Shown: piece by piece, positions 14,044-57,432 of the stretch
How the letters are laid out: every line of letters begins with the position of its first letter
How positions within the stretch are numbered: position 1 is the stretch's first letter
Origin: a virus
Virus record (IMG/VR): IMGVR_UViG_3300029787_000052
Coordinates: 1 to 57,432 of that record
DNA: 57,432 bases
Direction: 5' to 3' (one strand)
Program-made: the position numbers and the translations under genes
The notes under the pieces: model-generated
Told to the model about the DNA's origin: nothing
Database searches by the model: none
The model's input: the letters and a program-made list of their open reading frames with translations, nothing else

Positions 14044-15828
14044 ATGCAGATGAGTGATCAAGACAATTACATTCAAGACCAAATTGAAGTAAGGGCAAAC
14101 AGCGCAAGGTCGGGCTACTCGACCACCGCAAGGATCAGATGTCCGGTCTGTTCGGACTCAAGAAAGAAGGACGGCGAAAGGTCGATGGCCGTCACTTTTT
14201 TTAATGACCGTCTTGTCTATAAGTGCCATCACTGCGACGAGAAAGGCGTCATTGCTTATGACCGCAAGGAGGTAAAGCCTCGGCGCTCTTATCCTAAAGT
14301 CCAACGAGTGGACAGCCCCCCGCCTTCAGCCATCGACTGGCTTGTCAAAGAGAGAAAGATCAGCCCTCAGGTCGTCAAGGATTACGGAGTTGCCGCTTCA
14401 CGAAAATACTTTCAGAAACTACAGGCTGAAGCAGACTGCGTTGGCTTTCCGTTTTACAACAACGGGGAGGTATACGCAGTTAAGTACCGTACATCGGGTG
14501 GAGAGAAGGCGCATACCCAAGAGGGTGCTGGTGGTGCCCAAAGCTTCTTTGGCATTGAGCGGGTAGCAGCAGACGCCGACACGTTAGTGATATGCGAAGG
14601 TGAGATTGACCAGTTAAGCCTAGCGAGTGCCGGTGTCCTGAATGCTATCAGCGTCCCGAATGGTGCCCCGATGAAGGCATCGGAGGGCGAGGTTGATCCT
14701 GACAATGATCGTAAGTACGGCTTTGTCTGGGCGGCAAAGGACTTGCTGAAACAGGTTGATAAGGTTGTTCTGGCCGTTGACATCGATGGTCCGGGCCAAG
14801 CCCTCGCAGAGGAACTTGCTAGACGGATTGGCAAGATCAAGTGCTGGCAGGTTGAGTGGCCTGAGGAATGCAAAGACCCCAATGACGTACTGGTTAAGCA
14901 CGGCAGCGAGAAGTTAGCTGAAGTCATCGGTGACTCGAAGCCGTGGCCTATCACTGGTCTATTCGATGTCGATCATTACGCTGATCAGGTTGACCAGATA
15001 TATGAGCGCGGCCATCAGCGCGGATTGTCTACAGGTCTGGACTGCATAGATGAGCTATTCACAATCAGCCCCGGTCAGCTTTCGATTGTCACCGGGCACC
15101 CATCATCAGGTAAGTCTGAGTTTATAGATCAGATCATGGTGAATATGGCCGAGGCATACGGGTGGTCGTTTGCTGTATGCTCATTCGAGAACGATCCCCC
15201 AACCCACATCATCAAGCTTATGGAAAAGCATTCGGGCGTTCCCTTCCATGACGGTCCTAGCATGAGGATGACGCGGGAAGAACTTGCCGAAGCGAAGGAC
15301 TGGTGCGGTCGGCATTTCTTTTTTGTTGAGCAGAACGACGGAGAACCAGCGACTATCGAGTCGATATTAGAGAGGGCACAAGCCGCCATTCTGCGATATG
15401 GGGTGAGGGGTTTGATCATCGATCCCTACAACTATGTTGATATTGACAAGTCAAAGGTGAGCGAGACCGAAGCTATCAGTCAAATGCTGACACGGTGTCG
15501 TCTATTCGCACGGGCACATGACGTTCACGTCTGGTTCGTCGCGCACCCAGCAAAGATGATGCGAGATGGCGGAGAGTTTCCTGCGCCAAAGGGCTACGAC
15601 ATTTCAGGGTCAGCCGCGTGGTTTGCTAAGGCTGATCTTGGCGTGACGGTTCACAGAAAACCAGACACAAATTTGTCAGAAATCCACTGCTGGAAGGTGC
15701 GCTTCAAGTGGATCGGACAGCAAGGAGTAAGAGATGTCGAATACTTTAAATCAACAGGACAGTACAAAGAACCCTTCCAATACACAGGAGCCGTTCAATC
15801 CCCAGTCTACATTCAAGGCAGAGATTAG
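14044..15828 (+). CDS. bifunctional primase-helicase (T7 gp4/Twinkle type)
   Basis: The 594-residue replicative protein has an N-terminal CPVC..CHHC zinc ribbon (C33, C36, C61, C64) for template reading. A TOPRIM domain follows, with the acidic LVICEGEIDQLS (E185) and AVDIDGPG (D246, D248) motifs, then a RecA-like hexameric helicase with Walker A GHPSSGKS (351-358). A RecA-type Walker B candidate, GLIIDPYNY, and a later FVAHPAK region follow. It makes RNA primers and unwinds DNA at the fork. No DNA polymerase gene was recognised in the window, so it probably works with host polymerase III. The last 95 bases overlap the next gene. Confidence 0.95.
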   Translation: MQMSDQDNYIQDQIEVRANSARSGYSTTARIRCPVCSDSRKKDGERSMAVTFFNDRLVYKCHHCDEKGVIAYDRKEVKPRRSYPKVQRVDSPPPSAIDWLVKERKISPQVVKDYGVAASRKYFQKLQAEADCVGFPFYNNGEVYAVKYRTSGGEKAHTQEGAGGAQSFFGIERVAADADTLVICEGEIDQLSLASAGVLNAISVPNGAPMKASEGEVDPDNDRKYGFVWAAKDLLKQVDKVVLAVDIDGPGQALAEELARRIGKIKCWQVEWPEECKDPNDVLVKHGSEKLAEVIGDSKPWPITGLFDVDHYADQVDQIYERGHQRGLSTGLDCIDELFTISPGQLSIVTGHPSSGKSEFIDQIMVNMAEAYGWSFAVCSFENDPPTHIIKLMEKHSGVPFHDGPSMRMTREELAEAKDWCGRHFFFVEQNDGEPATIESILERAQAAILRYGVRGLIIDPYNYVDIDKSKVSETEAISQMLTRCRLFARAHDVHVWFVAHPAKMMRDGGEFPAPKGYDISGSAAWFAKADLGVTVHRKPDTNLSEIHCWKVRFKWIGQQGVRDVEYFKSTGQYKEPFQYTGAVQSPVYIQGRD

Positions 15829-16582
15829 AGCGCACTCTGTTGTAGATTTCTTTGTGCTTGAAACAAACCTGCCACCCGATTTCGTCGCCCTTCTTAACGA
15901 AGAGATTGACAAGTTACTGGCAGAAGAGAACGTCAAGGAAAAGGATTACTCTGGAAACCTTGTTGGGCAGATCAAGAACGGGGCACAGCTTCTTCTTGAG
16001 AAAGACAGATGCGAGGCGTTCCACGGTGTGTATGGCGTAGCGGAAAGCTTGGCCAAGGAATACGCCAAGAGGTTCATGATGATCGGTTCTGGAGATGCAA
16101 TACAGCAGGGTGCTGTCGATTATGTTCACGCAGATTGTTATGAGGCGTGGTCAGTTCATAGTTTCAGGGGGGATTATAATCCTATCCACGATCACGGTAA
16201 CCGTCTCGACGGTGCCATGAGTTTTGTGATCTACACGCAGGTGCCGCCTGACATGAGAAACAAGGAAGCATCAAATATGAAGAACGCTTCTGGGTGGATG
16301 GACGGGTGCATCAGCTTTGTTAACGGGCCTACCAGCCAGAAAGCTGCGGCATCGTTTCGCTGGCCGAAAGTTCTGAATATAATTCCAGAGGTGGGGAAAA
16401 TGGTGATCTTCCCACACTGGTTGAACCACATGGTCTACCCGTTCGATTGTGAGGGTGAGCGGCGTTCAATCAGTGGCAACATCACGATGATGACTGAAGA
16501 GCAGCATCAGATATTGACGAGTCAGATTATGAGTACTGAGGAAGAGGTGGTCTCCGCTCCCTCACAACAGGGAGCGGAGTAA
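15734..16582 (+). CDS. 2OG-Fe(II) oxygenase superfamily protein
   Basis: The 282-residue protein matches the 2OG-FeII_Oxy_5 type (PF13759). A jelly-roll core contains IHDHGNRLDGAMSFVIY (H152, H154), GWMDGCISFVNG, and FPHWLNHMVYPF (H232) followed by ERRSISGN with the 2-oxoglutarate Arg. The start at 15734 is supported by AAGGAG about seven bases upstream, so 95 bases are truly shared with the primase-helicase gene in another frame. The substrate is unknown. It is unrelated in sequence to the AspH-like oxygenase at 5919. A strong hairpin covers its 3' end. Confidence 0.85.
   Translation: MSNTLNQQDSTKNPSNTQEPFNPQSTFKAEIRAHSVVDFFVLETNLPPDFVALLNEEIDKLLAEENVKEKDYSGNLVGQIKNGAQLLLEKDRCEAFHGVYGVAESLAKEYAKRFMMIGSGDAIQQGAVDYVHADCYEAWSVHSFRGDYNPIHDHGNRLDGAMSFVIYTQVPPDMRNKEASNMKNASGWMDGCISFVNGPTSQKAAASFRWPKVLNIIPEVGKMVIFPHWLNHMVYPFDCEGERRSISGNITMMTEEQHQILTSQIMSTEEEVVSAPSQQGAE
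16552..16579. terminator. strong hairpin at convergent junction
   Basis: CTCCGCTCCCT (16552-16562) pairs perfectly with AGGGAGCGGAG (16569-16579) around a six-base loop, ending at the stop codon of the oxygenase gene. Rightward and leftward blocks converge here (stops at 16582 and 16603). No T-run follows on either strand, so it may be a bidirectional pause, a Rho-assisted end or an RNA-stabilising hairpin. Confidence 0.55.
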
Positions 16583-17318: not shown

Positions 17319-17628
17319 CTGGCACATCCTCCCATGCAATGTTTCCTTTACCCCAGCATCTCTCACACTCTATGTCTACGGGGTCGTAGCCTTGCCAAGG
17401 ACCGTTGGCGTTAACTCCTCCGACAGTCACCTCTCCCTCGACTTCTCCTGTTCCTTCGCAATCCAGACAGTCAAAATCAAAGTCGGGAATGATTTCATCC
17501 CAGTCGTTTCGCCAAGAGTAAATCACTGGAACTCGTACCGACGAGTCAATGCAAAGCTTGACTAAAGCCTTGACCGTTTGCGAATTGTCGGTGGCTTGTA
17601 TAGCTTCTTTTATGCTGCCGTCATTCAT
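17299..17628 (-). CDS. DnaJ-type zinc-finger protein
   Basis: The 109-residue protein has two CxxCxGxG motifs: CLDCEGTG at about residue 54 and CERCWGKG at about residue 88. The spacing fits one zinc-binding hairpin of the DnaJ cysteine-rich domain. There is no J domain. It could bind an unfolded protein or nucleic acid; in phages such mini zinc fingers are usually uncharacterised. It overlaps the next gene upstream by eight bases, suggesting coupled translation. Confidence 0.7.
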   Translation of the reverse strand: MNDGSIKEAIQATDNSQTVKALVKLCIDSSVRVPVIYSWRNDWDEIIPDFDFDCLDCEGTGEVEGEVTVGGVNANGPWQGYDPVDIECERCWGKGNIAWEDVPDVYTDE

Positions 17629-18592
17629 CTGCTTCCTCCTTTTTGTTAGGCGTCATCCAATTACGATCTGAAAATGGGCGCTGTTCCTCCCAAGAACTGT
17701 CCCAAGTTTCTTGTGCGTTATCAGTAACTGTATTGAACAAACGATCATCAGCTAAAAAATTCTTGAGCTTTTCAAGTTGTAAACAATTTAGCTTGAACCA
17801 TTCACCGCGCACGCACATTTCTTCCATTTTTCGATGCAGCCATTTCTCTAGGGAACAAGCTAGAGGACTGTCTTTTGTCTTGTAAACAAATTGTAATTCA
17901 AAGGGAGAACCGATTTGTAGGCCGCGTATTCTCTCGCTGGGGTTTGTCGAAACCCCTATCTTAATAAGACAATCATCAGATTCTTCGGGCTGCTCACACT
18001 CTACAATGTAAAGACTTTTGTAACCCCCCAAAGATTTAAAGGCTGGCAGCTTAGAACTTTTTGGTGGGCTTACGGCAGGTGACGCAAGGTTGCCGTAAAG
18101 CCCTTGCTGTTGGTTATTGATCGCCTGTTCAACAGTTTCGACCAAGGGTTGAGGTTGGCGTTGCAAGTTCTTATTAGACGGCGCGGCAGGGGCTGGATTG
18201 TTTTTTTTGTGCCATTCTTTTATTCCACGCTCAAATTCGCTAAGACGTGGCCTTGTATGGCCTTGTGTGATCCTTTCCTGCTGATCTTCTTTCCAGATAT
18301 TTATAGCTTTTTCATAGCCAGAAATTATTTTCCAGTTAGAAAGACTAGATTTAGCAATCTCGTGGTCTCTAGTTAATTTCCCAGACCAGTGATGATGCTT
18401 AAAGTATCTCAACCTCTGGTCTGCGCCTTCAAAATTATCATAGCACCGCTTATCAACGACTCCATCTCTCAGAACAAAGTAAACCTGCTGAACAGGGTCG
18501 CCTACAACTGCTTTATAGCCACTTGGATCGCTTACAAGTTGCGGAGGGTGACCCTTTGTGTTGTCTCGTGAAGATTTAACGCTGTAGATCAT
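17621..18592 (-). CDS. T5orf172 / GIY-YIG-like domain protein
   Basis: The 323-residue protein carries a C-terminal domain (about residues 195-285) with LYIVECEQ, IKIGVSTNPSERIRGLQIG, LEKWLHRKM and VRGEWFKL, the pattern of T5orf172/MUG113 domains, a branch of the GIY-YIG nuclease superfamily. The N-terminal part is a separate, unassigned domain, and a Gln/Pro-rich linker joins them. Nuclease activity is likely but not certain, as some members are degenerate. The start overlaps the stop of the preceding gene (ATGA). Confidence 0.78.
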   Translation of the reverse strand: MIYSVKSSRDNTKGHPPQLVSDPSGYKAVVGDPVQQVYFVLRDGVVDKRCYDNFEGADQRLRYFKHHHWSGKLTRDHEIAKSSLSNWKIISGYEKAINIWKEDQQERITQGHTRPRLSEFERGIKEWHKKNNPAPAAPSNKNLQRQPQPLVETVEQAINNQQQGLYGNLASPAVSPPKSSKLPAFKSLGGYKSLYIVECEQPEESDDCLIKIGVSTNPSERIRGLQIGSPFELQFVYKTKDSPLACSLEKWLHRKMEEMCVRGEWFKLNCLQLEKLKNFLADDRLFNTVTDNAQETWDSSWEEQRPFSDRNWMTPNKKEEADE

Positions 18593-20526: not shown

Positions 20527-20560
20527 GATTTCCTCCAAAATAACGGCGATTCTCATCGAC

Positions 20561-20594
20561 CTCGTGAGTAGTTGGTGGTGCAACCACCCACGAG
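20561..20594. other. intergenic stem-loop
   Basis: CTCGTG (20561-20566) pairs with CACGAG (20589-20594), enclosing GGTGG/CCACC around TGCAA. It lies between the VWA gene and the small membrane-protein gene. It could be a processing or attenuation hairpin in the leftward transcript. Confidence 0.55.
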
Positions 20595-20614
20595 ATCAAC
20601 GAGAGAAGCCATGA

Positions 20615-21907
20615 TTATCGGCTGATCTGAACGACTTGCGCCCAGTCAGCCTGTTTCTCGATGGTCTCAAGCCAATGCTGATGCTGTATGCATGCAGCAA
20701 TCAGTGTCGGGCATGACGGCTCAGGGATTTCGTCGTAGTAATCCTCGCAATCACTGAACACGATGATCGCATCGACATCCAAGCCTTCTTCTTCGATATG
20801 CTCGAAAGCACCCTTGGTGTTTGTGCCACCATAGAAACGAGTGCGGTCGATCTCGTCACCAGCCTCGACCACCTGCGTGTCTCTCACATAGTGTGTGAAC
20901 TTGATGACGTGGCTGGTGATCTCGAACTCGGACGCGATCAACTGCAACTCCTCACAGAACTGGGCGAACATCTCGTCATCGACTGATGATGACACGTCAA
21001 GCAGAACTGCAATCTCACCGCCGACATCGACACGGCGGCTAGGCAGCGGCACACCCACTGCACGAGACCGGCGACCAAGCCGCTGGTATGTCGTGCCAGA
21101 TGGGCGACCGTCCAGCAGGAACCGACGCAACACCGACCGCCAGTCAACCTGTGGGCGGCGAAGCATATCAATGTGCTGCTTGAAGGGGCTGTCTTCCTTG
21201 CCAGCCTCGCCAGATATCATGGCGGCGTTCAGCACAATCTCAGTCCACTTGTCCTCTTGCTCCTGTATGTCAGAGGCAGAGAGAGCGGAGCCGTCATCGT
21301 TTGTGCCGTCGATCACCACTCCGTGGCCTTGCATGTCCACTGGCTGGTCGTCACCCGACTGAGCAGGTAAAGCGGGAGCGTCTTGAGAGTCGCCGTTCTC
21401 TGCGGCTTTCGCGTCGTTACCCTGAGCATTACCCTGAGCATCGCCCTCATCACCACCCTTTGGTGATTCGCCCTCGCCTTGCTGACCAGCGGCTGGTGGT
21501 TCTGGCTGATCCTCAAAGAGCTTTCCGTAGATGTCTTCTGCGGACTGTCCGTCCCAAGCCAGATCAACCAACCCGTCTTCGGGCAGAGAGAAACCGGCAG
21601 CAACCAAGATGGCGTTGATGGCGTAGTCGGCGGCGATGTTCCAGTTGTTCTGGTCACGCTGACCTCGACGCAGATGGTGCTTGAAGATGACGTGGCAAAC
21701 CTCATGGGCAACCACTCCCTTGAGGTGAGCGTTCGAGTGCTTGTCAACAAACGCGGGGTTGAACAGGATGCGCTTGCCATCGGTCGCCATCGTCTCAAAC
21801 TGATCGGTCTCGACCAGATCAAGACGCATGGCGATGTTACCGAAGAACGGATTGTCCAGCAGTAGCTGGGTCCGCGCCTTGGTGATCTTCTGATGTGCTA
21901 GTGACAT
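20615..21907 (-). CDS. DUF2201-type metallopeptidase-like/VWA protein
   Basis: The 430-residue protein has an N-terminal zinc-peptidase-like domain with HEVCHVIFKHH (HExxH at 68-72) and WNIAADYAINAIL, the pattern of DUF2201. A low-complexity Gly/Asp/Glu linker (about 133-215) follows, then a C-terminal von Willebrand A-like domain with the metal-site motif LLDVSSSVDD (D304, S306, S308), a later TRFYGGTNTKGA and IIVFSDCED. VWA proteins of this type partner with MoxR AAA+ ATPases (compare RavA-ViaA). Strong AAGGAGG precedes the ATG. The MoxR ATPase gene is two genes upstream. Its activity in phage is unknown. Confidence 0.88.
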   Translation of the reverse strand: MSLAHQKITKARTQLLLDNPFFGNIAMRLDLVETDQFETMATDGKRILFNPAFVDKHSNAHLKGVVAHEVCHVIFKHHLRRGQRDQNNWNIAADYAINAILVAAGFSLPEDGLVDLAWDGQSAEDIYGKLFEDQPEPPAAGQQGEGESPKGGDEGDAQGNAQGNDAKAAENGDSQDAPALPAQSGDDQPVDMQGHGVVIDGTNDDGSALSASDIQEQEDKWTEIVLNAAMISGEAGKEDSPFKQHIDMLRRPQVDWRSVLRRFLLDGRPSGTTYQRLGRRSRAVGVPLPSRRVDVGGEIAVLLDVSSSVDDEMFAQFCEELQLIASEFEITSHVIKFTHYVRDTQVVEAGDEIDRTRFYGGTNTKGAFEHIEEEGLDVDAIIVFSDCEDYYDEIPEPSCPTLIAACIQHQHWLETIEKQADWAQVVQISR

Positions 21908-21919
21908 ATCAATACCTCC

Positions 21920-22786
21920 TTACTGACCGATGAAATCATCGATCTGGTTCATGATCTGACGAGCGTTGTCAGCGACTTCTTGACGCTTGCCCTCGTCTTT
22001 CTTGAGGGTAGAGGCATCGGTCTCGGTCAAGCGCAGCCCGATATCCTTGGCAAGTTGCTCAAGCCGTGGATCATCGCCGACGTTCAGCGATGGCAGCAGA
22101 TCGGCAATGTCACGCACGTTGCCGACCAGACTGTCGTAAAGCTTGGCACCTTTCTTGTCGGGATCGAAAGCTTCGAGACGCTCGACCATGTTGCTGATGG
22201 CAGAGTAGGCGCGGTCGAAACACTCGCTGGTCACCTGCGTGACACGCTCGTCATTCTTGCGCTGCATCTGCGTGACGATCTTCTGCTTGTCTTCAGCAGA
22301 CATGGCCACCCGAAAGTCGCCAGCCTCAGGGACAGGCCGAACCTCGACATCCGAATGAAACAACTCGGCACATGCCTCGACGCTGGGAAATATGTCAGCG
22401 TCGAACAGGTCGCCCAGTCGATGCGGTGCCTGATCAACCAACTCAGGATAGACCTTGAGGAAGTCAGCCACCGCGATGTCGAAGGCGTCGGTCTTCTCAC
22501 GCATCACTTCGGTGAAGCGGTCATAGCCCTTGGCCTTGATGATGTACCAGCCATCCTCGGACCACGGCGCAGTCTCGGCGGCGAACACATTGTAGAGCGC
22601 ACCACGAGCAGTCTTCACCGCCTTGTATGCGGGGTGGGTAGTATCGATCAGCGTCTTGATGACCTTGACCGCCCGTTGGTTGGCGTTCTTCTGGTCCGCG
22701 ACTTCGAGCGATACGCCCTTGTCAGTCTTGGAGAAGCTGGGGTATTTCACCGACAGCCTCACAAGCAGTGCTTTTTCTGAAAGCAT
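21920..22786 (-). CDS. DUF3150-like protein of the MoxR/VWA module
   Basis: The 288-residue protein resembles DUF3150, a family seen next to phage AAA+/VWA genes. Features are an N-terminal strand-rich MLSEKALLVRLSVKYPSFSK, a helical middle with LGDLFDADIFPS and VRPVPEAGDFRV, and a charged C-terminal helix bundle. No catalytic motif is visible. It may be an adaptor linking ATPase and VWA protein. It lies between them, 12 bases from the VWA gene. The family name is given from memory of pattern, so moderate confidence. Confidence 0.68.
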   Translation of the reverse strand: MLSEKALLVRLSVKYPSFSKTDKGVSLEVADQKNANQRAVKVIKTLIDTTHPAYKAVKTARGALYNVFAAETAPWSEDGWYIIKAKGYDRFTEVMREKTDAFDIAVADFLKVYPELVDQAPHRLGDLFDADIFPSVEACAELFHSDVEVRPVPEAGDFRVAMSAEDKQKIVTQMQRKNDERVTQVTSECFDRAYSAISNMVERLEAFDPDKKGAKLYDSLVGNVRDIADLLPSLNVGDDPRLEQLAKDIGLRLTETDASTLKKDEGKRQEVADNARQIMNQIDDFIGQ

Positions 22787-22812
22787 AATTCACCTCTCGG
22801 ATTGATGTTGAC

Positions 22813-22828
22813 GAGTCACTGATGACTC
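22813..22828. repeat. dispersed 16-bp palindrome, copy 3
   Basis: GAGTCACTGATGACTC, extended to an ACGAGTCA/TGACTCGT palindrome at 22811-22830. It lies 27 bases upstream of the DUF3150-like start. The 21 bases from the leading C through TAG are also present at 26307-26327 (copy 5). Confidence 0.8.
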
Positions 22829-22830
22829 GT

Positions 22831-22895
22831 AGATGCATTTGCATCTATCAGCACACCGGATGTGATGTGCTGGTAGATGCAGGGGCCGAAGCCCC
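22831..22895. other. cluster of intergenic hairpins after moxR-like gene
   Basis: AGATGCATTTGCATCT (22831-22846) is a near-perfect palindrome. CAGCACA pairs with TGTGCTG at about 22849-22873. GGGGC/GCCCC (22882-22895) encloses CGAA, which on the transcribed minus strand is a cUUCGg tetraloop, one of the most stable RNA hairpins. The cluster fills the 116-base gap between the MoxR-like and DUF3150-like genes and may set transcript ends or relative expression. Confidence 0.65.
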
Positions 22896-22902
22896 CACAC
22901 CG

Positions 22903-23889
22903 TTAGCCGAGTTCCACGTCGGCATTGTCTGCGCGGTACTGGCAGACCGCCTTGGTCTCAGCCAGATCGGGATGGCGCGAGAGAATGTCACGCACCAGCA
23001 CGACACCAAACTCACGGCCTAGTCGTTTGCCGTAGATCAGCGCAGCCTCGATGGTGTCCTCGTCCACCCGCTTGGCGATGTTGGCGACCAGCGCGATAGT
23101 CACGTCGGTATCCGTAGGCACCTCGCAGTTCTCAGGGTCATCGAACACCTTGCTGACCGGGATCAGCCGGTCGAAGATGCGGAGGAACCCGGCAAACTCA
23201 GCCGCACGTCCCTGCCCAATCAGACCGGATAGCGCGGGAAGATAGTCCCGGCTTTCGATATGCGGCAGCAGCGCAGACACCGCCGACCACGACCGTGCAG
23301 TCGGGCTGACCTCGGCCTTGGGGTCGAACTCTTGCAGGGCATCAGGGCGATGCCGCACATAGCCGACCACACGATGGTCGATACCGGACTGGCCAGCCCA
23401 TGCAGCCCAGTCGTCAACGTCTGCTTCGAGCGGCACGACAGTCAGGCGGTCACGCACATGGGTTGGCAGTGGGCGACAACCCGCCTTGTCTTTGGAGCGG
23501 TTGCCAGTGGCAATCACCGACCAGCCGTCAGGCAACTGATAGCCGTGCAACTCACGTTCCAGCAAGAGACGTGCGGCACCGTTGAGGACGCCTTCGTCAC
23601 CCTGCGGTAACTCGTCAATGAGAAGCACACCGACATCCCCGTCACGATCTGCACGGGGTAGCCAGTCCATTGGCTTGAAGGTGGTCATTGCCCCTGACAC
23701 GTCAGGAATGCCAGTCCAGTCTTCACGGGCCATCGTCGGCACCGGAGCGTAGATCAGGTTGCCGCCCAGTTGCTTGGCGATCTGTCGGGCCAAGGCAGTC
23801 TTGCCCAGTCCGGGTTCGCCTTCGAGATATGGAACGCCGCCGGACTTGAGGATGGCGAGGGTGATGCGTAAAGCTTGAGAGTATTTCAT
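22903..23889 (-). CDS. MoxR-family AAA+ ATPase
   Basis: The 328-residue ATPase has Walker A GEPGLGKT (24-31), Walker B VLLIDE (88-93), sensor-1-like SVIATGNRS and a C-terminal helical lid. MoxR ATPases act as hexameric chaperones that remodel protein complexes together with VWA-domain partners. The DUF3150-like and VWA/peptidase genes follow directly on the same strand, so they probably form one complex. It starts three bases from the stop of the small gene upstream. Confidence 0.9.
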   Translation of the reverse strand: MKYSQALRITLAILKSGGVPYLEGEPGLGKTALARQIAKQLGGNLIYAPVPTMAREDWTGIPDVSGAMTTFKPMDWLPRADRDGDVGVLLIDELPQGDEGVLNGAARLLLERELHGYQLPDGWSVIATGNRSKDKAGCRPLPTHVRDRLTVVPLEADVDDWAAWAGQSGIDHRVVGYVRHRPDALQEFDPKAEVSPTARSWSAVSALLPHIESRDYLPALSGLIGQGRAAEFAGFLRIFDRLIPVSKVFDDPENCEVPTDTDVTIALVANIAKRVDEDTIEAALIYGKRLGREFGVVLVRDILSRHPDLAETKAVCQYRADNADVELG

Positions 23890-54042: not shown

Positions 54043-54045
54043 ATA

Positions 54046-57000
54046 ATGGCTGAGATTACGATAGAAGGTATTGGTGATGTGGAGGTGGGTGATGAATTTT
54101 TCACCCTAGACGCTGCTGGTCAGCAAGCATATGCAAACGAAGTCGCAAGGCAAATATCTTTAGGCCAAACTGCTGTTGGCACATTTGCACCATCCGTCTA
54201 CCCCTATGCCGCACGAGACAAAGCAGGTTTTTTTGATCGTGTGGGCGAGTCTTTTGAGTCTGGCGTTAGCAAGGTTCGTGGCCTTAGTGCCAGTGCTGTT
54301 GAGGCTACGGGTGAGCTAACAGGGTCCGAAGACCTTACAGGCTTTGGCCGAGAAGGTCGCGAAGCTTTTGTTAAAAGAGAACAAGAGCGCGAAATTCCTG
54401 CCATACAATTTACCGACATTGATAACTTAGGTGACGTTGGCGAGTGGCTTACGGACACCATCCCCGAACAAACTGTAATGTTTGCTCCTTCGATTGCTGG
54501 TGGTCTGGTAGGAGCAAAGCTTGGGGCAAAAGCAGGGGCAGCAGCGGGTGCGTTTTTTGGCGGCGTTGGTGCAATACCGGGAGCCGCAATAGGCGGAACG
54601 ATTGGTGGTTTGCTGGGCGCATTTATTCCTTCGCTTACCCTTGGTGTAGGAGAAGTTCAAGAGTCAATTAAGTCGAAAGACTCATCCGTTGTAAATCCTG
54701 AAGCAGCATTTGCTGGAGGTACTGCAATAGCGGCGCTTGATTCAATCCTGCCCGGAAAGATTGGAGGTCAGCTTGTTAGGCGATTAGGAACAGAATCTGC
54801 TGAAGAGGTAGCAAAAAGAACGCTACTCAAGCCTATCAAGCGGGAGTATCTCAAAGCCGCTGGTAAGGGTATGGCTGTTGAGGGAATTACCGAGGCTATG
54901 CAGGAAGCAATAGCAGAGGTAACAGCGGTTGAGGCCACCGGACAGGAACTGGATGGCGCTGAACTAAGAAAGATGATGATCAATGCTGGTGCTGCTGGCG
55001 CATTGATGGGCGGTGGCGTTAGAACCGCGTCTGAAAGATTTAAGAAAACCAGAACTCAAGACGAAGTAGATCAGATACAAAAGCTTTTAGACAAGAAGGA
55101 AGCAGAGCGGGAAGCTCGCGCTCGTGAAACTATTACTCCCGATCCAGATGGTCCTCTTCTTTTAAGTTACAACGAAGCAGAGTTTACGACTGATAGCCCC
55201 TCTCAAGTTGTAGAAACTATCATTGACGAGTCAGTCAACGATGTTGCCCCCACAGGTTTGGGAGAAGATATCGGAGCGGGTGCGCCTCTCGGCCCATTCA
55301 CTGTACGCGAAATGCCTAACGGTGGGTTTGCAGTTGTTAATGCTGCGGGTGAGGTGCGGACACCGTCTTTCCAAACTCTTGACCTTGCTCAAGAAGCTGC
55401 CAATCTTTTAACAGAAAGAGTGCCGACAGCTATTGAAGCTGCTGAAGTTGAGTTCACACAAGCGGCAGCAAGTCGTGCGCTTGAAGATAATAAGATTGAA
55501 GAAACCGCTGCTACTCTAGATGCTGCTAGAGAAACAGTGACTCCTCTGGGATTTTTTAGCCGTGAGGAAGTTGGTAAAAAAATTGCTTCCCAAATAGACC
55601 GCAAGCGGACTATGGCTGTTTCTCTCAGGCCGGGAGAGATCGTGCAAAACGATGGCCTCTATACCATTGAAGAGGTGGCTGAAACAGGAGCATCCAACAA
55701 AGCCTTAAGCGCCATCATTGCTAAGAAAAAACCACTTACAGAAGACGCATCTCTTAATGTCACGGTCAGAGACATAGAAGACCTAGCGTCGACTAAGAAC
55801 ATTCGCTTTGGCGATGAGTCGTTTAAGACGTTTGCGTTGCGGACGACAGGCAAATCAATGCCACAAAATATGTCGCAGGTGCAGAGGAATGCTTTGTTTG
55901 AGCGGCTGGACGCGATGCCGGAGTTCAAAGAAGAAACTTCTATCCCTGTTATTAAGTATCCTCATTTCACGGCACAGCAGATTGCTGACGTAGCGAAAGC
56001 AATTAGGGAAACAGGTACAGCAGAGGTTTGGAAAGACACTTCAAAGCCTCCCCCTAAGGCAGCTAAAGTTTCAGATAAGTTAATTCTAGAAGCAGTTGGC
56101 GCACCTAATATAAAGGGCGCTCGACGGAAAGAAGTGGCTGGTGAAATTAGGCGAGAGCTTATTCGTCGCGGAATACTAGATAAGAACGGGACAATCAAGC
56201 GTCGTTTGGTTCTGAGGGGCAGTCCCGAAAGAACGGCCCCACCCAGTGTAAAAAAACAAGAACTGTTGCAGCGGCTTAAGCCTTTAGCTAGGGCAATTAA
56301 CGATAGGTTCCAAGCAAGGGTAAAAGCCAATCCTGCGCTGGAGGGTGTCAGGCTTAAGTTTAACAACTTAATTGAAAGTATAGAGAGCGGGGAAATCCAA
56401 GCTGACGCTGAAGGTGTGTTTAGAGCCGAGGAAGAAGCTGGTCAGCTTATTAAGACTATACGATTGGCGCTTGACCCTGTTGTTGATCCGTCAAAGTCAG
56501 ATCAAGAAAACATATCCGCTCTTGCTGAAGTGCTTGATCACGAGTTTATTCACGCAGCTTACGAGGCTGGTGTTGTTACTGATCAGGAAAAGGCGGCATT
56601 AGAGTCTTTTGTGAAGAAGGCCAAGCGTCCCGGTACTGACAAAACATATTACGAGGACAGGGTCGAAGCTCTTAGAGATAATCCTCCTAGTGAAGAGATA
56701 CTTGTAGAAGAAGCTGTAGCGGAAGCGTTCCGAGATTACGCCGCAGGTCGTCGCGTGTTCCCGCCTAAGACGCGAAACATTTTCCGTAAGATTGCTGAGT
56801 TCTTTAGGCTTGTCAAAGAAGCGGCGGCAGACGCGGACATCATAACTGGTAACGAGATATTCCAGCGTCTTGATGCTGGTGTGGCACCCCTTCGAGGGAG
56901 GCGGTCTGGCGGCAGGGCTACAGAGACAACCGCTACTCCAGTTAATCTTAACGCAGCAGAGACAGCTACGGTTGAAAGAGAGGGTCGTGTTCCCGACTTT

Positions 57001-57432
57001 CCAACAGCCGAAAAGTTCTCTAGAAAACGTGCCCGTAAGACACCTGCTCCAGTTGGAGATAACCCGTTCCCCACCCCTCCCGAAGACGAAATACAAGCAC
57101 GTCTAGGCAGGAAGGCAAAGAGGACAGATGTTGCGGGTGCTACCGAGTCTACAGGACCACGAAACCCACGCCAAGAAATCGTAAACGATGATGGGGAAGT
57201 AGTCGCTGTTGTTGGCAAGATTACATTTGACGACTGGATCAATCAGACAGAAACTCGTCTTGATGATGCCGGAATAGCGGCGGCACGGGAATGGTATCCA
57301 GAAGCAGCCAAATCGTATCAAAAGTATTTTGGCAAAGACTGGCCTAACTTTTTAGCCGCATGGCTTATGGCTAACCAACAGGCTAGTCCTTCGACAGCGG
57401 CTATGAATGCTGTTCGTTCAAGAGAGCAAGCG
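54046..57432 (+). CDS. giant polyvalent virion protein, 5' part (residues 1-1096)
   Basis: Starts ATG at 54046, three bases after the previous stop, and stays open through the end of the window, continuing at base 1 in frame (57334 is in phase with base 1). Predicted total 3069 residues. A Gly/Ala glycine-zipper region lies at about 145-205, suited to membrane insertion. A zincin-like motif, HEFIHAAYEAG, has H832, E833 and H836 with a later VEEAVAEAF (about 887-895) that may supply the third ligand. KFSR occurs at 990-993. Polyvalent proteins of this type are packaged and injected and often counter host defences; protease activity is inferred from the motif only. Confidence 0.88.
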   Translation, partial: MAEITIEGIGDVEVGDEFFTLDAAGQQAYANEVARQISLGQTAVGTFAPSVYPYAARDKAGFFDRVGESFESGVSKVRGLSASAVEATGELTGSEDLTGFGREGREAFVKREQEREIPAIQFTDIDNLGDVGEWLTDTIPEQTVMFAPSIAGGLVGAKLGAKAGAAAGAFFGGVGAIPGAAIGGTIGGLLGAFIPSLTLGVGEVQESIKSKDSSVVNPEAAFAGGTAIAALDSILPGKIGGQLVRRLGTESAEEVAKRTLLKPIKREYLKAAGKGMAVEGITEAMQEAIAEVTAVEATGQELDGAELRKMMINAGAAGALMGGGVRTASERFKKTRTQDEVDQIQKLLDKKEAEREARARETITPDPDGPLLLSYNEAEFTTDSPSQVVETIIDESVNDVAPTGLGEDIGAGAPLGPFTVREMPNGGFAVVNAAGEVRTPSFQTLDLAQEAANLLTERVPTAIEAAEVEFTQAAASRALEDNKIEETAATLDAARETVTPLGFFSREEVGKKIASQIDRKRTMAVSLRPGEIVQNDGLYTIEEVAETGASNKALSAIIAKKKPLTEDASLNVTVRDIEDLASTKNIRFGDESFKTFALRTTGKSMPQNMSQVQRNALFERLDAMPEFKEETSIPVIKYPHFTAQQIADVAKAIRETGTAEVWKDTSKPPPKAAKVSDKLILEAVGAPNIKGARRKEVAGEIRRELIRRGILDKNGTIKRRLVLRGSPERTAPPSVKKQELLQRLKPLARAINDRFQARVKANPALEGVRLKFNNLIESIESGEIQADAEGVFRAEEEAGQLIKTIRLALDPVVDPSKSDQENISALAEVLDHEFIHAAYEAGVVTDQEKAALESFVKKAKRPGTDKTYYEDRVEALRDNPPSEEILVEEAVAEAFRDYAAGRRVFPPKTRNIFRKIAEFFRLVKEAAADADIITGNEIFQRLDAGVAPLRGRRSGGRATETTATPVNLNAAETATVEREGRVPDFPTAEKFSRKRARKTPAPVGDNPFPTPPEDEIQARLGRKAKRTDVAGATESTGPRNPRQEIVNDDGEVVAVVGKITFDDWINQTETRLDDAGIAAAREWYPEAAKSYQKYFGKDWPNFLAAWLMANQQASPSTAAMNAVRSREQA
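57334..57431. repeat. terminal direct repeat, right copy
   Basis: Identical to bases 1-98. The unique genome length implied is about 57,333 bp. The last window base (57432) does not match base 99. Confidence 0.95.

Follow-up and report, generated by a model that had tools for sequence, protein, structure and literature searches.

A phage and plasmid gene triad encoding a MoxR-type ATPase, a divergent DUF3150 protein and a VWA protein with a metallopeptidase-like head

Three adjacent leftward genes of a phage, in a window comprising the whole 57,432 nt of IMG/VR record IMGVR_UViG_3300029787_000052, encode a MoxR-type AAA+ ATPase (A), a divergent DUF3150 protein (D) and a DUF2201 protein (V) in which a zincin-like head is followed by a linker and a C-terminal VWA domain (Table 1). 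On sequence grounds it is very probable that the three proteins form a complex, and the analogy with characterised MoxR-VWA systems makes it likely that this is an ATP-driven remodelling machine, carried by mobile elements. The best explanation as a whole, that such a complex bears a peptidase head and serves a DNA-processing complex of the element, is about evenly balanced; its observed basis is the architecture, the conserved motifs, the conserved linkage and the neighbourhood. The identification of the target as a DNA-processing complex is the tentative part, falling somewhat short of probable. Two points look new: D recurs as a third partner, and phages are linked with conjugative plasmids; the triad as a set apparently has neither a name nor a known job.

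Table 1. Features of the triad locus, in positions of the window
Feature	Position	Strand	Length	Remarks
A, MoxR-type AAA+ ATPase	22903..23889	-	328 aa	Pfam AAA_5, phrog_1297
A, Walker A	23797-23820	-		
A, Walker B DE	23611-23616	-		
A-D intergenic region	22787..22902	-	116 nt	four consecutive stem-loops in the transcript
D, divergent DUF3150 protein	21920..22786	-	288 aa	
V, DUF2201 protein	20615..21907	-	430 aa	zincin-like head, linker, C-terminal VWA
V, metallopeptidase-like head	21503..21907	-		residues 1-135; motif conservation
V, HExxH (HEVCH)	21692-21706	-		residues 68-72 (H68-H72)
V, D94	21626-21628	-		candidate third zinc ligand
V, low-complexity linker, predicted disordered	21323..21511	-		residues 133-195; pLDDT <50 at residues 150-190
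V, VWA domain	20618..21028	-		residues 294-430; VIA
V, MIDAS DxSxS	20984-20998	-		D304-S308; further MIDAS residues T362, D386
24-bp hairpin	20551..20604	-		begins 11 nt past the V stop codon; MFE -45.2, z -8.1

An earlier note, made from the letters of this DNA, had described adjacent leftward genes for an AAA+ ATPase, a DUF3150-like protein and a VWA protein with an HExxH head; the ORFs have exactly the coordinates that it gave (span 20615-23889, minus strand), and Pfam matches and motifs bear the description out. A matches Pfam AAA_5 above the cut-off (E 2.2e-6) and phrog_1297, an ATPase family (E 9.8e-74). Among proteins of solved structure, midasin AAA modules are closest to it in sequence. 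Walker A, Walker B, sensor 1 (N130), the Arg finger (R148) and sensor 2 (R199) are all present and are largely conserved across 179 homologues, essentially all of which keep the ATPase lysine and the Walker B aspartate. As expected of a MoxR AAA+ ATPase, A has a VWA partner encoded beside it. RavA-ViaA likewise consists of a MoxR ATPase and a VWA partner, and the proposal that the locus follows this type of logic is supported; RavA-ViaA is not known to have a peptidase head or a DUF3150 protein.

V matches two Pfam families, PF13203 and PF09967, above the curated cut-offs: DUF2201_N with E 1.9e-41 and 142.9 bits (cut-off 23.2), and DUF2201 with E 1.5e-10 and 41.7 bits (cut-off 26.4). H68, H72, N90, D94 and N98 are invariant among 66 V sequences, and in the AlphaFold2 model H68, E69 and H72 are present, with D94 on the next helix. 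The VWA domain aligns with VWA/I domains at VIA Z scores of 12-13 over about 135 residues, the matches including the NorD VWA of the NorQ-NorD complex. All catalytic motifs of A and V are intact in this phage, and the motif surveys (200 V and 179 A proteins) show that the catalytic residues are not degenerate across homologues: 190 of the V proteins retain HExxH with its catalytic glutamate, and all but one retain DxSxS. The head is, as judged from these residues, reasonably likely to be an active zinc peptidase. Because the glutamate is lost, with H68, H72 and D94 kept, in seven deltaproteobacterial A-V pairs, and HExxH is wholly lost in two plasmid V proteins, peptidase activity would appear dispensable in some relatives. 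The V family carries the label 'HNH endonuclease' in PHROGs, and its identity as a peptidase-headed VWA protein corrects this widespread annotation.

The D of the window has no Pfam match of its own, falling below the gathering score of PF11348, and is therefore termed a divergent relative and not a strict member of that family. The label 'DUF3150-like' given to it earlier is right, as 27 of 68 relatives match PF11348, comparison of the D profile with plasmid DUF3150 by hhalign gives 95% (E 1.9e-8), and a Foldseek search with the AlphaFold2 model (pLDDT 95.3) finds an annotated phage DUF3150 in BFVD (E 4e-18, TM 0.85). The model comprises an alpha+beta N-terminal part and then a long helical bundle. 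Foldseek returned no known fold for it from the PDB (best E 0.48), and VIA only generic helical bundles over residues ~157-288, from which no relation is claimed. D also has no NTPase or beta-propeller match in Pfam and no match in PADLOC, and no mention of DUF3150 was found in the literature searched.

Co-occurrence of the three families in other genomes, set as a test beforehand, is strong. Among 51 IMG/VR loci found by D, A and V lie on the same strand in 40, the other 11 being contig-truncated; the order in phage loci is A-D-V, with median gaps of 50 and 5 nt. Plasmids of Burkholderiales carry the triad too, as do genomes of acidobacteria and of other organisms, with gene order and orientation unchanged in the plasmids and the acidobacteria. 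No close DNA relatives were detected in the phage collection with the first 25 kb of the window as query. The first D alignment was too divergent for the collection scans, and a gene of phage PJN101 (L005, 6418-7716) was dropped as a candidate V, having no alignment to V. In a large share of relatives, 54 of 80 VWA-anchored viral loci, A and V occur without a recognisable D, a point against the explanation given above. Genes that separate A from V or follow the pair in such loci encode proteins of other clusters, without profile similarity to D; one cluster of ~225 aa is also present in loci with D and so is no replacement for it.

The earlier view of the system as largely undescribed holds for D as a third partner but not for the A-V pair. 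A MoxR ATPase of the same type and a V with an N-terminal metallopeptidase fused to the vWA domain have already been described in group 2.2 jumbo phages (Iyer et al. 2021, PMC7824862), as two genes with a proposed role in virion assembly, whereas here DUF3150 stands between them and plasmids have the set as well. Phage N4 (Schitoviridae) encodes homologous A and V proteins as gp24/gp25 (phrog_1297, phrog_1314), the latter matching DUF2201_N and DUF2201, and in the N4-like phage G7C the two are adjacent or nearly so; unlike in the window, no DUF3150 gene was recognised with gp24/gp25.

'Phage-encoded', though correct for many phages, proved too narrow a description, as the triad is equally a plasmid module. 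Of 72,556 plasmid records, 1,118 carry DUF3150; 969 of these 1,118 are conjugative, and IncC-type plasmids are among the carriers. Remote A-D-V sets are present on pCAR1 and R478, and D and V are adjacent on IncC. In pCAR1 (ORF101-103), R478, SXT/R391 and the IncC backbone, a MoxR/CbbQ-type AAA+ protein, DUF3150 and a VWA protein share a transcript (pCAR1) or a gene cluster; the pCAR1 transcript is a single unit covering ORF100-109 (PMC2642839). As DUF2201_N goes undetected by Pfam in the VWA proteins of pCAR1 and R478, a classical plasmid version without a peptidase was considered. This is refuted by an HExxH alignment and a head profile match: all five VWA proteins checked from the remote plasmid sets have the HExxH head (H57, E58, H61 and D88 invariant), which matches the phage head at E 1.2e-5 (81%). 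These remote V proteins have a head like that of the phage V, missed by the Pfam family, and are longer (~600-670 aa); the pCAR1 A, unlike the phage A, carries a CbbQ C-terminal domain. Several 'hypothetical' backbone genes thereby become one testable machine, found in phages as well as plasmids, giving a context to a domain of unknown function whose carriers include IncC-type plasmids that spread drug resistance.

The closest published mechanism is that of NorQ-NorD, in which a MoxR ring acts on a VWA protein whose MIDAS (DxSxS-T-D) and additional N-terminal domain have counterparts here, and for which twisting has been described (PMC13036017, PMC9976466; twisting in PMC13036017); the accessible parts of these sources describe two components with nitric oxide reductase as the known substrate, and no peptidase head or third subunit. 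By extension, the ring of A would hold the VWA part of V, and ATP hydrolysis would twist or pull it relative to the N-terminal head. The MIDAS site may grip an acidic residue on the target, while the flexibly linked head would provide a second contact and might cleave it; D, as the third subunit, would most likely serve as the adaptor, recruiting the target or keeping it in place. VMAP/iSTAND ternary conflict systems also combine MoxR, vWA and a third protein, with effectors fused to the vWA, but their third protein, from which D appears to differ, is VMAP, iSTAND (an inactive STAND NTPase), FtsH or a beta-propeller. Their effector domains are of various kinds and lie mostly on the C-terminal side of the vWA, whereas the head of V is N-terminal and nearly invariant (PMC7159879).

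The most likely target would be one of the protein-DNA complexes through which the element itself replicates or recombines. In this phage the triad lies in a leftward block with an ERF annealase, an exonuclease and a primase-helicase, at a distance from the head and packaging genes, which run rightward, and its plasmid neighbours are ssb, Bet/RecT and lambda-exonuclease. DNA polymerase, primase-helicase or nucleases are near 82 of 131 IMG/VR loci, a count made without a matched control; as evidence for the target this neighbourhood is guilt by association. Deleting bet, exo, s067, s068 and s070 in SXT, a set that may or may not include triad genes, altered transfer 10-fold at most (PMC2791158), and the triad is accordingly not known to have a strong role in transfer. 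It is conceivable, though doubtful, that the triad forms an AAA+-driven metalloprotease machine of its own type, shared by phages and conjugative elements, in which DUF3150 would select the substrate, the MoxR ring power VWA movement and the zincin head cut. Its substrates would then be recombination or replication complexes bound to DNA, or host proteins preventing the element from entering.

Phages and conjugative plasmids both face host defences on entry, and the intermixing of phage and bacterial D sequences suggests repeated exchange; both would suit counter-defence or host takeover, in which the triad would take apart a complex of host defence or of the cell and its peptidase destroy it, as would a role dispensable in laboratory conditions. 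However, no recurring anti-defence neighbour was seen, the motifs are all conserved over the long term and do not show fast turnover, and PADLOC gave no meaningful match to a known defence system. The anti-defence or host-inhibiting role raised in the earlier note has no direct support, and appears unlikely. The proposal for jumbo phages, by analogy with Acidianus two-tailed virus (Iyer et al. 2021, PMC7824862), is that A and V remodel virion components while the peptidase trims structural proteins in assembly or maturation. There is a MoxR-vWA precedent in an archaeal virus, and the pair in Klebsiella phage RaK2 adjoins genes annotated as virion structural; against this, the G7C pair lies by dCTP deaminase and thymidylate synthase. 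As the triad also occurs on conjugative plasmids, which have no virions, and in genomes lacking them, and phage copies are often among replication and recombination genes, as in this phage, virion assembly is quite unlikely as the shared function. A chaperone for metal or cofactor insertion like NorQ-NorD, CoxD-CoxE or CobS-CobT, with a head that binds metal without cutting, would fit the NorD-like VWA, the annotation of the pCAR1 V as 'NorD' and the zinc ligands retained where the glutamate is lost, but is very unlikely given that no metalloenzyme gene was seen to recur beside the triad, that a canonical CobT has no HExxH head and that 190 of 200 V proteins keep the glutamate.

The preferred reading, a remodelling complex, concerns the proteins; the locus also contains structured intergenic DNA. 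Hairpins had been said to flank each gene, and they are real in the A-D gap and after V but are not found around every gene: the D-V gap (12 nt) and that upstream of A (2 nt) are too short to hold one. The A-D gap folds with an MFE of -53.9 (z -6.2), reached by none of 200 shuffles, and its stem-loops are still recognisable in a relative with ~80% coding and 71% intergenic identity. The hairpin after V is kept in near-identical relatives and absent in a more distant one (L022). Several further intergenic regions of this phage are likewise structured.

The 57.4 kb virus record carries terminase, portal and capsid genes among its rightward genes, and a leftward block, adjoined by a rightward primase-helicase gene, that includes an ERF-type annealing protein and a PD-(D/E)XK exonuclease. 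The three genes proposed as a module in the earlier note do lie at the coordinates it gave, inside this leftward block and in the reading order A, D, V (see table). The assigned families also stand: A is a MoxR-type AAA+ ATPase, and V, which belongs to DUF2201, joins a metallopeptidase-like head to a VWA tail. The description of D as 'DUF3150-like' is likewise backed, although a Pfam search with the window's own protein gave no match: PF11348 is matched by 27 of 68 D relatives, the D profile matches plasmid DUF3150 proteins at 95% probability, and the best viral structural match of the very confident AlphaFold2 model (pLDDT 95.3) is an annotated DUF3150 protein (E 4e-18, TM 0.85). A Foldseek search with this model found no match among solved structures, and the VIA second look at D gave common helical arrangements only.

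Coordinates of the features discussed
Feature	Record	Position	Strand
A, MoxR-type AAA+ ATPase, 328 aa	window	22903-23889	-
D, divergent DUF3150 protein, 288 aa	window	21920-22786	-
V, DUF2201 protein, 430 aa	window	20615-21907	-
A-D gap	window	22787-22902	
Hairpin just after V	window	20551-20604	
MUG113/T5orf172 gene	window	17621-18592	-
2OG-Fe(II) oxygenase ORF	window	15734-16582	
Right end (3.4 kb)	window	54043-57432	
V without HExxH	L029	9941-11224	
V without HExxH	L031	9848-11122	
A with DD	L027	7861-8883	
phrog_1314 V protein	L008	4953-6338	
~225-aa cluster member	L130	10005-10679	
Gp157 protein	L058	9222-9848	

A survey of gene neighbourhoods bore out the expectation that the three families recur together outside the window. 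The strongest test set out from D alone and reached 51 more distant IMG/VR loci. A and V lie on D's strand in 40 of these, and in the remaining 11 a contig end falls upstream of D at under 2.4 kb; the most frequent orders are A-V-D (23) and A-D-V (15). D without A and V was not seen in these phage contigs where the flank sufficed. Anchoring on V, among the matches listed, 51 of 80 genome loci have the order A-D-V and 54 of 80 viral loci have A and V but no gene recognised as D; both scans were seeded with short conserved motifs, such that these counts are proportions of the sample and not of nature. From these counts, the pair that stays constant is A with V, and D is a frequent third partner. 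Beyond these contigs D can occur separately: a weak match to D in phage Tunturi_3 lacks a V gene within 5 kb, and on a Manganitrophus plasmid D adjoins an AAA+ gene of another type. The three-gene system is real and conserved, and is a variant of the MoxR-VWA kind; part of the system has already been described.

Of greatest use is the connection that emerges between the phage versions of the triad and those of conjugative plasmids. Close relatives of D were found on 44 plasmids, mostly of Burkholderia, Paraburkholderia and Cupriavidus; six of the seven plasmid loci read hold an A-D-V set. Among the loci read, two have PRTRC genes next to the set and two have VirB conjugation genes. A remote version of the triad is present on pCAR1 and R478. 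DUF3150 occurs on 1,118 plasmid records, of which 969 are conjugative, and extrapolation from the handful of plasmids read would place A and V with D on the majority. On an IncC plasmid ssb, bet and lambda-exonuclease genes, and on pGZAF1 ssb and lambda-exonuclease genes, lie upstream of D and V, which an AAA+ gene precedes in both; a Providencia plasmid has the order RecT, exonuclease, small gene, MoxR, DUF3150, VWA, while one Vibrio plasmid has AAA+ and DUF3150 genes with no VWA gene directly after. A tiling array showed pCAR1 ORF100-109 to be one transcript, with ORF101 as MoxR and ORF103 as VWA, and genes within ORF100-103 are conserved in R478, Rts1, SXT and R391; ORF102 is not discussed in that paper (PMC2642839). 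By position, ORF102 is the DUF3150 gene.

Sequences from phages, plasmids and genomes are intermixed in a tree built from 80 D proteins. Well-supported branches force at least seven changes of the phage label, which points to repeated exchange, although some genome loci may be prophages, which would lower this number. This was a quick tree, in which several long branches, including the window's D, are poorly placed.

The two triad versions can also be compared through the head of V. Pfam finds no DUF2201_N in the pCAR1 and R478 VWA proteins. In an alignment of five plasmid VWA proteins, HExxH is invariant near the N-terminus, and N, D and E come after it every four residues; the window's V family has H68-E69-x-x-H72, then N90, D94 and N98 with the same spacing. 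A single pairwise profile alignment joins the two heads (E 1.2e-5, probability 81%), while a canonical CobT protein has no HExxH and gave no match. Across the five proteins compared, this is good but not conclusive evidence for a zincin-like head common to both versions.

Catalytic residues are largely intact across homologues, not degenerate, as the module proposal entailed. HExxH is retained in 190 of 200 V proteins, and in 35 of 35 from D-anchored viral loci, where the search pattern was blind to it; DxSxS is present in 199 of 200. In seven deltaproteobacterial V proteins, from A-V pairs (L047, L052, L070, L083, L085, L099 and L107), the catalytic glutamate is replaced by T or L while the histidines and aspartate are kept, a pattern that suggests a head which binds metal but does not cut. 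HExxH has been lost, and the VWA motif kept, in two V proteins from plasmids (Variovorax, Paraburkholderia dioscoreae). Nearly all of the 179 A homologues retain the Walker A lysine, the Walker B aspartate, sensor 1 and sensor 2; the Walker B glutamate is aspartate (DD) in 46. The DD form is found in Burkholderiales plasmid copies. PHROGs and many deposited phage records give the V family (phrog_1314; for instance H1 and H10) the label 'HNH endonuclease'; the family matches DUF2201 metallopeptidase and VWA, and its label looks like an error passed on from record to record.

The VWA tail of V matches VWA domains with Z 12-13 over ~135 residues, including that of NorD, solved with the NorQ ring. 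In that complex, a finger of the VWA domain is held in the ring's pore and twisted against the N-terminal domain, and the target is presumed to be gripped at the MIDAS site (PMC13036017; PMC9976466). By analogy, the head of V would be a second lever, possibly a cutter, and D an adaptor.

Virion assembly, proposed for a jumbo-phage pair (PMC7824862), could hold for some phages; it cannot easily be the common function of the triad, because plasmids lack virions. In 82 of 131 IMG/VR loci the flanks hold replication or recombination genes, among them DNA polymerase A, TOPRIM primase-helicase, PD-(D/E)XK nucleases and RusA, and remote-type plasmid triads neighbour ssb, Bet or RecT, and lambda-exonuclease. 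These neighbourhoods, taken without a matched control, are only suggestive of action on replication or recombination. SXT lacking bet, exo, s067, s068 or s070 changes in transfer by at most 10-fold (PMC2791158); some of these may be triad genes.

The A-D gap contains four consecutive stem-loops, one with a UUCG loop, and folds much more stably than shuffled sequence (z -6.2). The stem-loops are recognisable in a relative with ~80% coding identity, in which the gap is 71% identical, below the coding parts, and they are partly conserved in relative L016. The 24-bp near-perfect hairpin after V is present in near-identical relatives and absent from the more distant L022. As this phage has structure in other intergenic regions too, the hairpins may serve generally in processing or termination and not belong to the module.

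Elsewhere in the window, the leftward block also holds a gene with a MUG113/T5orf172 (GIY-YIG-like) domain, a 2OG-Fe(II) oxygenase ORF overlaps the end of the primase-helicase gene by ~95 nt, and the right end, structured in some stretches, is without a rightward ORF of at least 90 aa. A cluster of ~225-aa proteins occurs near A and V in 26 viral loci, between them in several, and also in loci having D. A Siphovirus Gp157 protein is found near the triad in 12 genome loci, several of them acidobacterial, and directly after V in one (L058).
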